Source: Desulfosarcina sp.
Lineage (GTDB): Bacteria > Desulfobacterota > Desulfobacteria > Desulfobacterales > Desulfosarcinaceae
Assembly: GCA_014237405.1 (NCBI GenBank)
Contig: JABZFO010000146.1
Span: 28,642-92,641, forward strand
Direction: 5' to 3'
DNA: 64,000 nucleotides
Position numbers and translations under genes: made by a program. Below, piece after piece: positions 1 to 9,555 of this stretch; within the stretch, counting starts at the first letter, position 1, and every line of letters begins with the position of its first letter. The notes under the pieces were generated by a model that was not told the DNA's origin, did not search any database, and was given only the letters and a program-made list of their open reading frames with translations.

Positions 1-3000
1 CGGCCAGCTTTTCCGCCGAACGGCCGAACAAGTCGTCCACGGCCACATCGTCCAGGTAGTCGTCGGCCCAGGGAACACTGTTCTCCTGGACGATGTTTTT
101 GATGTGCTCGCATTTCCCGCCCAGCGCCTTGATTTTCTTCTCCAGCGGTATGGCTTCCTTAAACGCGATGTTCAGCAGCAGCAGATAGCGGATGCGGCTG
201 CCGTCCGTGGGATCATCGGATGTGGCCGGAATCACAACGATGCTGCGCCCGTCTTTTCTCCCCTTGCCGATATAGATGTTACCCTGGCGCACGATGATGC
301 GTTTGGTGCCTTTCAGGACAGGGTCTGTCTCCACACGCGAGGACAACTGGGCCAGGATGCCCGTTTTTTTCAGGATGGCAATGGTGGTCTGATCCGTGGG
401 ATCGCCCAGCAGGCCCAGGCCATCGATGCGGTATAGAATGCTGCCCGCGACGTGATCGATAACACCCTGGATGTTTTTCATGACGATGACGTTGCGGTTG
501 ACCACTTGAGCGATGTCCAGATCGTGGTCGCCCAGGGTGTCGAAGAGGATGCCCTCAACCCGTTCGCTGATTCGGCTGGTTCCCACGGTGACGGTTTTGG
601 CTTGGTGTTTGATGGCGTCCACCGGGCGGGACATGAGGTTGATGGATTCTCCCAGCACGCGGAACAGGGCGTTGAGCACATTTTTGGCCGTGCCCTTGAG
701 GCCGAAATCCATCTCGAAATCGGTCAACGGCAGCCGGCCCGAAAGATATTTGAACAGCAGGGTGAGATCCGACGCATGGGTGATGGCCGTGGGGAACCGG
801 TTAGCCTTGCGTTTGTTTCGAAAGGCCTGATAGAAGCCGGCAATTTTCTCTCTGAAGGACTTTTCCAGAATTACCTCGTAGACATCCAGGCCCTGTTCGG
901 CAAGGTCGTCCAGGGTATTGCGGATGGATTCACGGACGTCGTGGAGGAATCGGGAGCCTTCATGTATGGCCAGGGCGGCGTGGTAGCCCCAGATGTGACC
1001 CACCAGCGTGTTGAGAATGGGCGCAAACTGGGGGCTCACCTGGGGAACGTGAAAGACGTCTTCGGCATAGGGCCCGAAGCGCTCCTCACCCTCGTCGGTG
1101 ATGACCACTGGGGCGGCCTTGTGTGCTTTGAAGATGGCGGTGTCCTTGATGATGTCCCCGATGACGGTGCCCTTGGACCCGGCGGCGCAAACGATGATCA
1201 GCGGCTCGGAGGAGAGGTCGATGTGCTTCTTGTCCTCCACAAAATCCGAGGAGATGGTTTTGTAGCACAGTTCGCTGAGCTTGATGCGGATCTCGTCAGC
1301 CGAGGACTTGTTGGGACCGCTGCCCACGGCGGCCCAGTAAGTCTTGGTGGCCGCCAGACGCCGGGCCGAAGCCTGGATTTGCTCTCCCATGGCCAGAACG
1401 GTGCGCATGTGATCGGGGATCCGGAGCAGCTCCGCGATCTGGTCCGAGAGGAATTCGGTGGACCGTCGACCCTTAATACTCGCCACTTTCAGGCTCAGCA
1501 GGGCCCCGGCGACGATCTGTGAGTAAAAGGCCTTGGTGGAGGCCACGCTCATTTCGATATCCCTGCCGCTGGAGGTATACAATACGCCGTCCACCTTGAA
1601 GGTGATGTCCGAGTCCCGCCGGTTCACGATTGCCAGGGTGTGGGCGCCACGGGCCTTGACCATGTCCACGGTGCGGTTGGTGTCGGTGGTGGTTCCCGAC
1701 TGGCTGATGGCAACGACCAGGGTGTCGGCCATGCTGGCGTCGTCGTCCCCTTCGTTCAATTCGAATCCGCTGAGTTCCGAGGCCTTGAGGGCGCGAAGCT
1801 GAATGGCGGGATCGGCCAGATAGGATTTCAGGATGTCGGCACAGGCCTGGGCGGCCACACCCGCAGTGCCCTGTCCCACGAAAAAGACGCGCCGAATTCG
1901 ATCTTCGGTGAAGGCTGCCTCCAGCGAGCGGGGAAAGAGCCGTTCGTCAAGATGGATGACATAATGCTGGCCGTCGCCGTTGTCGACAATCTTCCAGCGA
2001 TTGAGCAGGGTACGTTCCACCGACAGGGGTGCTTCGGAAATCTCCTTTAAAAAATAGTGGGGAAAGTCCTGGCGATCGATATCCCTTGAGGTGATCTCCG
2101 TGTGTTTGACGTCTTCGTCGGTGAGTTGGATGGGGGTGCCGTCGTAGTACATGGCGGTAACACCGGCAAGTCCCCCAGAGGAGCGCTGATCCAGAATGAA
2201 GATCTGGCCCTGTGTTTTTCCGATCTTCCCGTCCACCACCTTTTCGCCGTTCATCTTCAAGAAATGGTGTGTCTCTTCGATGAACCCGTACACCTCGGAA
2301 GCCGGCATGTAGTGATCTTCGGCCAGTCCCACGAAGACGGCCTGGCCGCTGCCCTTTTGGGCCAGGAAGAACTTTCCCGGGGCCAGGTCGGTATGCATGG
2401 CGATGGCGTGGGAACCCTTAAAATTGCTCACCGCCAGCCGGAAGGCCTCGGCCACGTCGACGCCGGTTCCCAGGTAGTGCTCGATCTGCAGCGGGATGAT
2501 CTTGGTGTCTGTGGTGATCGACTCGGGAATGGTGCACCCGGACGCTTCCATTGCCGCTTTGAGTTCCAGGTAGTTGTCGATGTCGCCGTTGAGGCAGGCG
2601 TGGATGATGGGGCGGTCCTTCAAGGTGGCGCCGGTCACGGTATTGTCTACCGGATGGCAGTTGGGTTCGGTGATGGCGCCCACCGATGCCCACCGCGTGT
2701 GGGACGATACCGTGTGAAAGGTGTGGGGCACAGCGGCGATTTGCTGCAGGATCTTGTCCTGTTGGATCTGCTGGCGCAGGAACCGGATATTATCCCCCAG
2801 GCTGCCGATTTCGGCGGCGATCTTATAGACCACGGTGAGGGCCACGATCGGCTGACCTTCGTTTGTGGTCGACCGGTTCAGACTGATGCTGGTGTTTCCC
2901 AGCACGTCACTCGCCATGCGGCGTTCGAAGTTTGTGGTGAGACCCTTGTCGTCCAATTCTGCTGAAAGTGTTTCGTACGCGTCAGCTGGCAGGATAAACA

Positions 3001-3751
3001 AAATGGAGATGCCCGCCGAATCCCGGCCCCGTACCTCAAGCCGGTCAATGCTGTTGAGTACGGCGTTGATCTGCCGGAAAAGGGCGATGCAGCTGTCGGG
3101 GCCATGGTCGGAACGGCCGGGCATCAGCGACTGGATTCGCCCGATGTTGCCGGCCAGTTCCACATCCAGACACCAGATCATGTCCTTGAGCGCTTCGATG
3201 CGTGTGGAGATGACATCCACCGCCTGGGTTTCAAGATTGCCCAACTGTCTGGCCAACAGCGCCTGCTCCCGTTCCAGAATCTTCGACAGTCGGCCAGACA
3301 GATCGGCCAGCGCCTTCTGGGCGGCTGGATTCTTGAACAGGGAGAGGAACGGCACCTCCTGCTTGAGGAACCGTATTTTTCCCAGCAGGGTGTCCAGGGC
3401 TTCCTGTCCCCCCAGGAACCCGCCGACGATAGCTTCCGTTTGCTGCAATTGGGATTCCAGTCCGGACGTATCAGCGGTGTCGACGAGAGTAGCTAATGGG
3501 GAAAGATCCATGGCTGTTTCCCGGCCCGCTCTTCCCTTGACCGCGATGATGCCGGCCAGGCCGCAGCACAGCCGGTTGGTGGAGCAGGGGAACAGGATCA
3601 CCGCCGGCCCGGACACCGATGCGGGATGACGCCCCCAATGGATGACCGGCAATCGTGAAATCCGGCGTCGTATCTTTCGAGTCAGATGAGACATGTGGTG
3701 AACGGTGCGAACGGCATGCCTGGCCACTGTGGCGATAAGGTCATGTTTCAT
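1..3751 (-). CDS. Giant GlmS-like amidotransferase/SIS-domain protein (C-terminus beyond window)
   Basis: This open frame is missing from the ORF track because it runs off the left edge. I read it from the reverse complement. The start ATG at 3751 has an AAGGA site 6 nt upstream and lies 10 nt after kdnB. GlmS landmarks appear in order: CCGLAG (Cys62/63), VRGRDSAG, HTRWAS, a CLNGDIDN loop and, in the isomerase part, SGRDIEMS followed by STKAF. It departs from GlmS (about 610 residues) in three ways: about 60 basic residues precede the nucleophile Cys, a coiled-coil-like insert of about 150 residues separates that Cys from VRGRDSAG, and several hundred extra residues follow the second SIS domain. 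At least 1,250 residues are visible. The expected activity is glutamine-dependent amination or isomerisation of a sugar phosphate. The operon suggests envelope sugar metabolism. Whether the Cys is freed by propeptide cleavage is unknown. Confidence 0.8.
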   Translation of the reverse strand, partial: MKHDLIATVARHAVRTVHHMSHLTRKIRRRISRLPVIHWGRHPASVSGPAVILFPCSTNRLCCGLAGIIAVKGRAGRETAMDLSPLATLVDTADTSGLESQLQQTEAIVGGFLGGQEALDTLLGKIRFLKQEVPFLSLFKNPAAQKALADLSGRLSKILEREQALLARQLGNLETQAVDVISTRIEALKDMIWCLDVELAGNIGRIQSLMPGRSDHGPDSCIALFRQINAVLNSIDRLEVRGRDSAGISILFILPADAYETLSAELDDKGLTTNFERRMASDVLGNTSISLNRSTTNEGQPIVALTVVYKIAAEIGSLGDNIRFLRQQIQQDKILQQIAAVPHTFHTVSSHTRWASVGAITEPNCHPVDNTVTGATLKDRPIIHACLNGDIDNYLELKAAMEASGCTIPESITTDTKIIPLQIEHYLGTGVDVAEAFRLAVSNFKGSHAIAMHTDLAPGKFFLAQKGSGQAVFVGLAEDHYMPASEVYGFIEETHHFLKMNGEKVVDGKIGKTQGQIFILDQRSSGGLAGVTAMYYDGTPIQLTDEDVKHTEITSRDIDRQDFPHYFLKEISEAPLSVERTLLNRWKIVDNGDGQHYVIHLDERLFPRSLEAAFTEDRIRRVFFVGQGTAGVAAQACADILKSYLADPAIQLRALKASELSGFELNEGDDDASMADTLVVAISQSGTTTDTNRTVDMVKARGAHTLAIVNRRDSDITFKVDGVLYTSSGRDIEMSVASTKAFYSQIVAGALLSLKVASIKGRRSTEFLSDQIAELLRIPDHMRTVLAMGEQIQASARRLAATKTYWAAVGSGPNKSSADEIRIKLSELCYKTISSDFVEDKKHIDLSSEPLIIVCAAGSKGTVIGDIIKDTAIFKAHKAAPVVITDEGEERFGPYAEDVFHVPQVSPQFAPILNTLVGHIWGYHAALAIHEGSRFLHDVRESIRNTLDDLAEQGLDVYEVILEKSFREKIAGFYQAFRNKRKANRFPTAITHASDLTLLFKYLSGRLPLTDFEMDFGLKGTAKNVLNALFRVLGESINLMSRPVDAIKHQAKTVTVGTSRISERVEGILFDTLGDHDLDIAQVVNRNVIVMKNIQGVIDHVAGSILYRIDGLGLLGDPTDQTTIAILKKTGILAQLSSRVETDPVLKGTKRIIVRQGNIYIGKGRKDGRSIVVIPATSDDPTDGSRIRYLLLLNIAFKEAIPLEKKIKALGGKCEHIKNIVQENSVPWADDYLDDVAVDDLFGRSAEKLA

Positions 3752-3761
3752 AGCGTTCCTT

Positions 3762-4898
<1,137 letters not shown>

Positions 4899-4902
4899 TT
4901 AT

Positions 4903-5071
4903 AGGGTTCGAGGGGTCAAGGATTCAAGGGTTCAAGGTGGATGAAACCAGGGGGTAAGGGTGAAGTTTTAGGTGTTAAGAAAATACTGTATCAAAGAGAC
5001 AACCGACACTTGCACTTATCGTTAAAGCGTGTTGGCCCTCTTTTCCCTTGACCCCTTGAATCCTCGAATCC
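4903..5071. repeat. Inverted pair of GATTCAAGG-type repeat arrays between kdnA and kdnB
   Basis: Bases 4903-4937 hold a run of related units (GGGTTCGAGG, GGTCAAGG, ATTCAAGG, GTTCAAGG). Bases 5045-5071 hold the same units on the other strand (CCTTGACC, CCTTGAATCC, TCGAATCC). The two arms could fold into a long imperfect hairpin in the kdnA-kdnB transcript. A third, single copy lies at 53149-53170. No ORF or transposase is present. This looks like a MITE- or REP-like intergenic element. Confidence 0.55.
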
Positions 5072-5085
5072 TTTTATCCTGTTAA

Positions 5086-7238
<2,153 letters not shown>

Positions 7239-7632
7239 CCAGACTGGTGCTCACCTGGTAGGGGCGGCCGTCGAAGTCCACCTTTATCGGCTGCGCCTCC
7301 AGGTTGATCAGTCGGGTTTTGCCCAAAAGGATATGGACATCTGTTTTTTCGATCAGTTCTGCGGCCTGTGCCGTCTGTGGCGGGATTGAATCGGCGACAC
7401 GCCTGACGGTTTCTTCATTGCCGCCTGTGATGAAAAGCCAGCAGATCCCCACAAGCACCAGAACTATCAGCCCGGCAGCCGCACAAAGACCCTGCTTCAG
7501 CCGGTTGCGTCCAGCCAACCGTCGCTGACGCTGGAGGTTTTCCTGATACGCTTTCCAGGCAGGCTGGGATGACGCATACGTATGGCGTTTAAACAAGCCG
7601 GTCATTGCCGAAAATAAAGCTCCTATGGCCCG

Positions 7633-9555
7633 TCAGCTCAACGGCGTGCCGGGCGTGACGGATTTGTCCAGTGTCGCAACGGTGACACCGGCGTCATCTG
7701 TTGCCGCAATAAGCATGCCTTTGGACAAAACGCCCATGAGCTTGGCCGGCTTGAGATTGGCTACAACGATGACCTGTTTGCCCACCAGTTCCTCGGGGGT
7801 GTAGCTACCGGCAATGCCGGAGACGATGGTTCGCTTTTCGCCCAGGTCTACCTCCAACTGAAGCAGCTTTTTGGCCCGGGGAACGGCCTGGGCAGACACC
7901 ACGGTGGCCACACGCAGGTCGATCTTGGAAAAATCGTCGATGGTGATTTCCGATTTGATGGGTTTGTCCATTTTCTGGGATCCGGCCTTTTCCATGGATT
8001 GCCGTTGTTTTTTGTCCAGGTCGATGCGGGGAAACAGGGATATGGATTTTCTCAGCTTTACACCCGGCTTCAGCCCTCTCCACGAGGTGAGCCGGGCCAG
8101 CTTGTAAAAATCGTCATCACCGGCAAGCCCCAGGTGCTTTTGCATATTGGCGGCGGTATCGGGCATCACCGGATAGATCAGGCCGGAGATGATACGAAGC
8201 CCTTCCAGCAGGTTATAGATCACCGTCTCCAGTTGTTTCCGGGTTGCCTTGTTTTTTGCCAGCACCCACGGGGCGGTCACGTCCACATACTTGTTCATGT
8301 GGGTGATGAACTCCCAAACCGCTGCCAGGCCTTTGTGAAAGGCAAACTCGCCCATGCTGGCCGTGTAGGTATCGATGGCGGCCCGGGCGTTGCTCTCCAG
8401 CCCCAGGTCCATCTCTTTTTCCACATCGGGGTTTGGTTCGGGAACCACGCCGTCGAAATACTTATGGGCCATGGTGAGCACCCGGGAAAAGAGATTGCCC
8501 AGGTCGTTGGCCAGGTCCGCGTTGATCCGCTGAACCAGGGCTTCTTCACTGAAGTTGGAATCCAGGCCGAACACCATGTCCCGCATGAGAAAAAAGCGGA
8601 AGGCGTCCAGGCCGTAAACGTTTTTCATCTCCAGGGGTTCCACCACATTGCCGATGCTCTTGGACATCTTGCTCTGGTCCACGTTCCAGTACCCGTGGAC
8701 ATTCAGGTGCTGGTAAACGGGGATTCCGGCTGCCTTGAGCATGATGGGCCAGTAAATTCCGTGGGGCTTGAGGATATCCTTGGCCACGATGTGCTGGGCT
8801 ACGGGCCAATAGGTTTTGTACAATTCACCATCCGGGTAGCCCAGTGCCGACACATAGTTGAGCAGGGCGTCAAACCATACGTAGGTCACGTATTCGGGTG
8901 CAAAGGGCAGAGTGATGCCCCACTTGATGCGGGATTTGGGCCTGGAGATGCAAAGGTCGTCCAGCGGTTCACGCAGAAATGCCAGCACTTCGTTGCGGTA
9001 GCGTTTGGGACGGATAAAGTCGGGATGCTGCTTGATGTGGTCGATAAGCCATTGCTGATAGCGGCTCATCTTGAAAAAATAGTTGGACTCCTTGATGGTT
9101 TCCGGCGGGCTTTGGTGATCCGGGCAGCAGCCGTCCACCAGCTCCCGTTCGGTGTAGAAACGCTCGCAGCCAAAGCAGTAAAGCCCTTCGTATTCGCTGA
9201 AATAGATGTCGCCGGCATCGTAGATGCGCTGGAGGATGGTCTCCACCACGGCCATATGGGCCGGGTCCGTGGTGCGGATGAAATAATCGTTGGAAATGTT
9301 GAGTTCCGGCCACAGTTTCCTGAAAAGGCCGCTGACCTGATCCACGTACTCCCGCGGCGTCCGATTTTCCTTTTTGGCGGCGCGGACGATTTTGTCCCCA
9401 TGTTCGTCCGTACCGGTGAGAAAATAGGTCTGGTCGCTGGACATGGTATGAAACCGCCTGATCACATCCGCTGCAATGGTGGTATAGGCGTGGCCCAGGT
9501 GGGGTCGGGCGTTCACATAGTAGATGGGGGTGGTTATATAAAACGGCGAGGCCAT
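7633..9555 (-). CDS. metG: Methionyl-tRNA synthetase
   Basis: A 640-residue class I synthetase that charges tRNA-Met. The HIGH-type motif is HLGH in the opening PIYYVNARPHLGHAY, and KMSKS is in SKMSKSIGN. A zinc knuckle is visible (CFGCERFY, then CCPDH). A C-terminal tRNA-binding domain of about 105 residues (from DFSKIDLRVATVV) follows a short linker, giving the long dimeric form. The start lies 3 nt after ricT. The large plus-strand ORF 7999-9858 is its shadow. The gene appears complete. Confidence 0.97.
   Translation of the reverse strand: MASPFYITTPIYYVNARPHLGHAYTTIAADVIRRFHTMSSDQTYFLTGTDEHGDKIVRAAKKENRTPREYVDQVSGLFRKLWPELNISNDYFIRTTDPAHMAVVETILQRIYDAGDIYFSEYEGLYCFGCERFYTERELVDGCCPDHQSPPETIKESNYFFKMSRYQQWLIDHIKQHPDFIRPKRYRNEVLAFLREPLDDLCISRPKSRIKWGITLPFAPEYVTYVWFDALLNYVSALGYPDGELYKTYWPVAQHIVAKDILKPHGIYWPIMLKAAGIPVYQHLNVHGYWNVDQSKMSKSIGNVVEPLEMKNVYGLDAFRFFLMRDMVFGLDSNFSEEALVQRINADLANDLGNLFSRVLTMAHKYFDGVVPEPNPDVEKEMDLGLESNARAAIDTYTASMGEFAFHKGLAAVWEFITHMNKYVDVTAPWVLAKNKATRKQLETVIYNLLEGLRIISGLIYPVMPDTAANMQKHLGLAGDDDFYKLARLTSWRGLKPGVKLRKSISLFPRIDLDKKQRQSMEKAGSQKMDKPIKSEITIDDFSKIDLRVATVVSAQAVPRAKKLLQLEVDLGEKRTIVSGIAGSYTPEELVGKQVIVVANLKPAKLMGVLSKGMLIAATDDAGVTVATLDKSVTPGTPLS

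Follow-up and report, generated by a model that had tools for sequence, protein, structure and literature searches.

The first amino sugar on the way to the cell wall comes from glucosamine-6-phosphate synthase (GlmS), an essential textbook enzyme and drug target with a length of ~600 residues. The glutaminase needs a free alpha-amino group on its nucleophilic cysteine, and in Escherichia coli GlmS, K603 is the Schiff-base lysine that binds fructose 6-phosphate. Two other class II amidotransferases, PurF (GPRAT) and GltB, are made with residues ahead of the nucleophilic cysteine, the propeptide of Bacillus subtilis PurF being 11 aa long. In PurF-type enzymes, the propeptide is cleaved autocatalytically, exposing the N-terminal cysteine, and some PurF members have a propeptide while others do not (PMC7056826).

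The window analyzed here, a 64,000-nucleotide stretch of Desulfosarcina DNA, encodes a GlmS homolog that shares with E. coli GlmS (b3729; PDB 1JXA) the order class II GATase, SIS, SIS, C-terminal loop, but is 1258 rather than 609 aa long. The additional sequence comprises a 62-aa leader, a helical insert of ~150 aa, an insertion of ~110 aa before the C-terminal loop and a domain of ~200 aa after it. This giant GlmS is a new form of a known enzyme, twice the normal size, and no description of it was found in the open-access papers and family databases searched. The features of the gene are as follows, with the source of each assignment in parentheses.

1..3751, minus strand: giant GlmS gene, start codon 3751-3749, with 26 nt more beyond the left window edge (ORF, host contig)
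3566..3751, minus strand: basic N-terminal leader, 62 aa, residues 1-62 (present in 41 homologs, absent in 19)
3566..3646, minus strand: leader core, 27 residues (36-62), [YF]xG[RK]xPxxVPxx[SA][IV][IV]FFP-x7-Cys (ungapped in all leadered homologs)
3563..3565, minus strand: Cys63 codon; Cys63 is the nucleophile of the glutaminase and corresponds to E. coli Cys1 (Cys in 41/41)
3077..3538, minus strand: helical insert, residues ~72-225, separating strand 1 of the GATase domain from its helix 1 (alignment, AlphaFold)
2684..2701, minus strand: HTRWAS, glutamine site, R353 and W354 being E. coli R73 and W74 (alignment)
2582..2596, minus strand: CLNGD, oxyanion hole, N388 and G389 being E. coli N98 and G99 (alignment)
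1679..1705, minus strand: phosphosugar loop of SIS1, SQSGTTTDT, residues 683-691 (Pfam, alignment)
1223..1294, minus strand: catalytic stretch of SIS2, E820-H843, with E. coli E481, K485, E488, K503 and H504 (structure match, alignment)
629..961, minus strand: helical insertion of ~110 aa, residues 931-1041, which sets the C-terminal loop apart from SIS2 (alignment, AlphaFold)
581..625, minus strand: displaced GlmS C-terminal loop PVDAIKHQAKTVTVG, residues 1043-1057, with K1052 being E. coli K603 (alignment)
1..580, minus strand: C-terminal domain of ~200 aa, residues 1058-1258, found only with giant GlmS (profile searches)

The start codon, an ATG, is closely preceded by AAGGAA, and the stop codon of the preceding gene lies 10 nt before it; the sequence-only reading, which took the ribosome site to fix the start, is borne out. 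Leftward extension of the contig, which that reading had proposed as a check, showed that the ORF, open at the window edge, closes at a stop codon 26 nt further on and is intact over 1258 aa. Eight relatives were identified in named genomes, including the Desulfosarcina alkanivorans and D. widdelii genomes, which are titled complete, with best-segment identities of 80-84% and nearly the whole length covered. Therefore, giant GlmS is a real, stable gene, and an artefact of a contig edge or frameshift is ruled out by the intact ORF in the host contig and in the genomes titled complete.

Pfam detects SIS and a weak GATase_6 in the giant protein and nothing else, and the nearest solved structures in a PDB comparison are GlmS and human GFAT. 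Unlike canonical GlmS, the giant scores below the cut-offs of TIGR01135 and PRK00331: the NCBIfam GlmS models match it over two stretches with 230-255 bits and, for TIGR01135, the score is ~230 bits against a curated cut-off of 418, so that the protein is not an equivalog by this model. We class it as a GlmS variant, not an equivalog; TIGR01135 has no place for the inserts. Given that standard GlmS models score the giants under cut-off, annotation may call the pathway absent. A plasmid search returned no record covering 80% of the query, the rows listed being annotated canonical GlmS or unannotated, and Rfam gave no match at all, and hence no glmS ribozyme, in positions 1-8000 of the window.

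Forty-one homologs were aligned to GlmS of E. coli and to two canonical enzymes of this order, and 30 E. coli positions were checked; at 25 of them, all 41 homologs were invariant and identical to E. coli. The invariant glutaminase positions include (E. coli numbering) Cys1, R26, G27, D29, S30, R73, W74, H86, N98, G99 and D123, among them the class II GATase residues that mark membership in GlmS (C1, R73, W74, N98, G99, D123). In the isomerase, they include Q348, S349, T352, V399, A400, S401, E481, K485, E488, K503, H504, A602 and K603, and the giant thus also shares with E. coli GlmS the diagnostic isomerase residues E481, K485, E488, K503, H504 and K603, the last of these found as K1052 past the insertion. 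The glutamine-site motifs HTRWAS (351-356) and CLNGD (386-390) are retained, as noticed in the sequence-only reading, and the loss of catalytic residues, which that reading had named as potential counterevidence, was looked for in the alignment of the 41 homologs and not found. This invariance rules out a pseudo-enzyme. The altered positions are T76, replaced by S, H77, replaced mostly by V, S347, which is T or S among the giants, S303 in the sugar-phosphate site, replaced by A, and E608, replaced by G; the latter two replacements occur together in one of the canonical enzymes in the alignment. The changes at T76, H77, S303 and E608 (S, V, A, G) count against a plain GlmS reading. Judged by its residues, the giant is best described as a glucosamine-6-phosphate synthase of expanded architecture, not a degenerate relative.

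The ~60 basic residues previously noticed before the cysteine correspond to a leader of 62 residues with 11 K/R, 7 H and a single D/E. Among 60 homologs, a set that takes in loci chosen for a late start, 41 have residues before the cysteine and 19 begin with Met-Cys; among the loci of the phylum sample, which were not chosen for a late start, the leader is present in 27 of 30. When right-aligned to the cysteine, all 41 leaders are gapless over 27 positions, with constant spacing to this residue. The conserved features are hydrophobic residues at -26 to -24, G at -23 (34/41), V/L/A at -17, S/A at -13, V/I at -11 (41/41), F at -9 and P at -8 (39/41 each), and mostly L or F at -2. This core is common to two deep clades with proteins only ~43% identical, and its profile, searched over 11 genomes, matched the start of giant glmS only (best other match, E 0.03). 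In the leader, dN was below dS in 11 of 11 pairs, with weaker constraint than in the body for most pairs; the leader is under purifying selection. Given the gapless core in two clades, the dN values below dS and the restriction of the core to this protein among those searched, the leader is a real, selected part of the protein.

Like PurF and GltB, the giant carries an extension before the nucleophile, which is conserved at the protein level as expected of a propeptide-type class II amidotransferase, and as in PurF, this extension is present in some members and lacking in others (PMC7056826). The giant differs from both enzymes in its synthase domain, in having its own conserved leader motif and in showing no evidence of an Fe-S cluster, and its leader is longer than the propeptide of B. 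subtilis PurF. The residue preceding the cysteine is variable (C, N, F, G, S, L or Y), with no cleavage-site signature, which counts against processing, and no alignment column clearly co-varied with the presence of the leader. In the leadered homologs, no ATG, GTG or TTG codon adjoins the cysteine (two have CTG there); therefore, an alternative start site does not explain a free cysteine, and together with the conservation of the leader as protein, this rules out a mis-called start.

Removal of methionine does not place a cysteine at the N-terminus of the window gene product, whereas it does so in the 19 Met-Cys homologs. These are homologs with a start aligned at the cysteine, which the sequence-only reading had considered potentially fatal to its interpretation; they argue for the need of a free cysteine, not against a leader that is conserved in the majority. 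The leaderless genes have Met-Cys behind a ribosome site, and several of them show a stop immediately before it. In a tree built from the bodies of 59 proteins (quick search, LG+G4), the leader state changes at least 8 times, and well supported branches force at least 4 of these changes, although the tree does not separate gain from loss. Most of these changes should be losses because the same ungapped motif would hardly arise more than once. Given that Met-Cys starts occur in scattered lineages, the enzyme would work with a free N-terminal cysteine, and the leader is dispensable in evolution. Leadered and leaderless forms exist with the same catalytic core, so that what a propeptide does for a class II amidotransferase could be tested cleanly. 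A divergent giant GlmS (L069, genome G210), with 36% identity and the same architecture, is leaderless and forms a very long branch; it may bear on whether the leader came after the inserts.

If the leader were never removed, the glutaminase would be silent in the leadered members, and the isomerase would run on free ammonia, which is plentiful in anoxic sediment. Without a start codon by the cysteine, these members indeed cannot have an N-terminal cysteine unless cleavage occurs, but C63, R353, W354, N388, G389 and D415 are invariant in 41/41, leadered or not, where disuse should bring decay, and Met-Cys starts recur in scattered lineages, so that we consider permanent retention of the leader quite improbable. 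The best reading, by analogy with the cleavage of the PurF propeptide, is that the leader is a propeptide that would be removed to expose Cys63.

The distribution of the giant was assessed in an order sample of 116 genomes from 87 genera and a phylum sample of 247 genomes. In the order, the giant profile matched 112 of the 116 genomes, with one match (G007) being canonical GlmS, so that the giant is present in 111. GlmS scoring above the cut-off was found in only two genomes of the order, G007 and G074, both without the giant, so there is no overlap. In the phylum sample, the giant is present in 30 genomes and canonical GlmS in 202, with both found in one (G284; Fisher p 4e-25, uncorrected for shared ancestry). 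The complete genomes of D. alkanivorans and D. widdelii contain the giant as their only GlmS. NagB, which could in principle run in reverse, was absent from all 10 genomes checked, including single-contig ones. Thus, the giant is the apparent sole GlmS and the only visible source of glucosamine 6-phosphate in these genomes, which argues strongly that it is active. By gene content, it has taken the place of canonical GlmS in a large group of sulfate-reducing bacteria: nearly an entire bacterial order, along with other lineages of the phylum, has swapped GlmS for a double-size form with the same active sites.

The one sampled genome that combines a canonical with a giant GlmS (locus L068, genome G284) is a natural case for studying a difference in role. 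Of ten giant-GlmS genomes (G000, G001, G002, G012, G048, G060, G063, G067, G098, G108), none had GlmU over the family cut-off, and 8 of the 10 showed the uridylyltransferase half alone, its ORFs being 267-323 aa long; in these genomes, the glucosamine-1-phosphate acetyltransferase step has to be supplied from somewhere else.

The sequences themselves show the architecture, the conservation of residues and leader, the replacement of canonical GlmS and the scattered Met-Cys starts, whereas activity, product and leader removal are what we infer from them. Probably, the giant is the sole GlmS of the cell, with the leader removed to free Cys63 for the glutaminase. In most members, the gene product has a structured leader in the way of the nucleophile, its last 27 residues adjoining Cys63. 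Once the leader comes off, probably by self-cleavage at Cys63 in the manner of PurF but perhaps through a separate protease, the free alpha-amino group would be available to the glutaminase site (Cys63, R353, W354, N388, G389, D415), which would draw ammonia from glutamine. The tandem SIS domains would receive this ammonia and use it to aminate fructose 6-phosphate, bound via K1052 and isomerized there; E827, K824 and H843 would take part in this as they do in E. coli GlmS.

The sequence-only reading had left open whether this is a processed enzyme or one remodelled for regulation. The processed branch is better supported, by the conserved glutaminase residues, the lack of a start codon beside the cysteine and the Met-Cys lineages, whereas regulatory remodelling alone does not fit because the giant is the only GlmS in these genomes. 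A further reading, which seems to us possible albeit doubtful, is that GlmS is made as a zymogen: a structured propeptide would silence the glutaminase, and cleavage at Cys63 would wait for folding, for assembly or for a signal read by the C-terminal domain. If so, envelope synthesis would be gated after translation at its first committed step, and the signal could be, for example, the level of UDP-GlcNAc or of a lipopolysaccharide precursor.

Two genes related to lipopolysaccharide synthesis lie upstream of the giant gene.

3762..4841, minus strand: kdnB-like 3-deoxy-alpha-D-manno-octulosonate 8-oxidase, separated by 10 nt from the start of giant glmS (PDB 5k8c, E 4e-146)
5086..6279, minus strand: kdnA-like 8-amino-3,8-dideoxy-manno-octulosonate transaminase (PDB 5k8b, E 1e-166)

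We take kdnA and kdnB to be the enzymes named for making 8-amino-Kdo (Kdo8N), a lipopolysaccharide sugar. In 22 of 42 distinct main-clade loci, kdnB is found on the same strand within 250 bp of the giant, and in three more, within 2.6 kb; the second-clade loci have no kdnB neighbor, with ~1.5 kb upstream covered for most. Both the kdnAB and the GlmS branch feed into the outer membrane; this agrees with a role as GlmS but is no proof of it. The co-location in the main clade could alternatively mean that the product is not glucosamine 6-phosphate but a different amino sugar, such as one linked to Kdo8N, and the S303 to A change in the sugar-phosphate site points in the same direction. However, the remaining sugar-phosphate residues are kept, the second clade lacks the neighbor within the region covered, and these genomes have no other GlmS or NagB, which makes a different product highly improbable.

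The operon with kdnA-kdnB is also compatible with a leader that is chiefly a targeting or assembly element, such as a basic amphipathic membrane-binding helix holding the enzyme near the site of lipopolysaccharide synthesis, and is cut by a host protease; the residues ahead of the 27-aa core are basic and are modelled as a helix at low confidence. Given that the strongest conservation adjoins the cysteine and not the basic helix, and that leaderless members exist as the sole GlmS of their genomes, this role appears unlikely compared with that of a propeptide.

The other additions were analyzed by alignment and with AlphaFold models built from 7 and 9 sequences (mean pLDDT 53 and 47), which are usable for the helical inserts only; neither model is good enough to locate the leader or the C-terminal domain. 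The ~150 helical residues that had been noticed between the cysteine and RGRDSAG are indeed there: this distance is 178 residues, compared to 25 in E. coli, and the insert is modelled as helices with pLDDT mostly 74-91. In all but two of 28 homologs, the distance is 173-186 residues. No other region of the protein changes as fast as this insert, in which most homologs share 22-36% identity with the window protein, and its profile yielded only generic, weak coiled-coil matches in PDB and Pfam.

After the SIS domains, several hundred extra residues had been described as a C-terminal extension. About 330 are present, but they are not pure extension: the displaced C-terminal loop AKTVTVG (1051-1057) lies inside this region, so that the tail consists of an insertion and an extension. 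In the giant, QAKTVTVG, with K1052, corresponds to LAKSVTVE of E. coli, where K603 is five residues from the C-terminus, and AKTVTVG is conserved in 28 of 28 homologs checked. The ~110-aa insertion ahead of the loop is modelled as helices, with fair (higher) pLDDT over the first ~80 residues.

Two of the added regions belong to no known family. The C-terminal domain, searched as a profile of 28 sequences, still had no convincing Pfam or PDB match. In the phylum sample, it is present in exactly the 30 giant-bearing genomes, and its matches sit within the giant ORF (or its continuation, in one split assembly), bar two short fragments. The helical insert, the pre-loop insertion and this domain would be lineage-specific additions with structural or regulatory roles. 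Besides a contig-end fragment, the sole match outside giant GlmS is a small ORF (154 aa; G061:C41:28433-28612) that resembles the last part of the C-terminal domain and lies ~7 kb from a giant gene.

The genome from which the window comes also encodes another, distinct giant protein with SIS domains (1452 aa; L017:5434-9792, host contig C111), which reaches 76-86 bits to the GlmS models. Like giant GlmS, it is long and has, besides the SIS domains, a motif resembling the C-terminal loop, NRAKSMTIG, with several hundred residues and a further HGP motif after it; unlike giant GlmS, it has a degenerate GATase-like part (HGRWA) and no clear nucleophile start.
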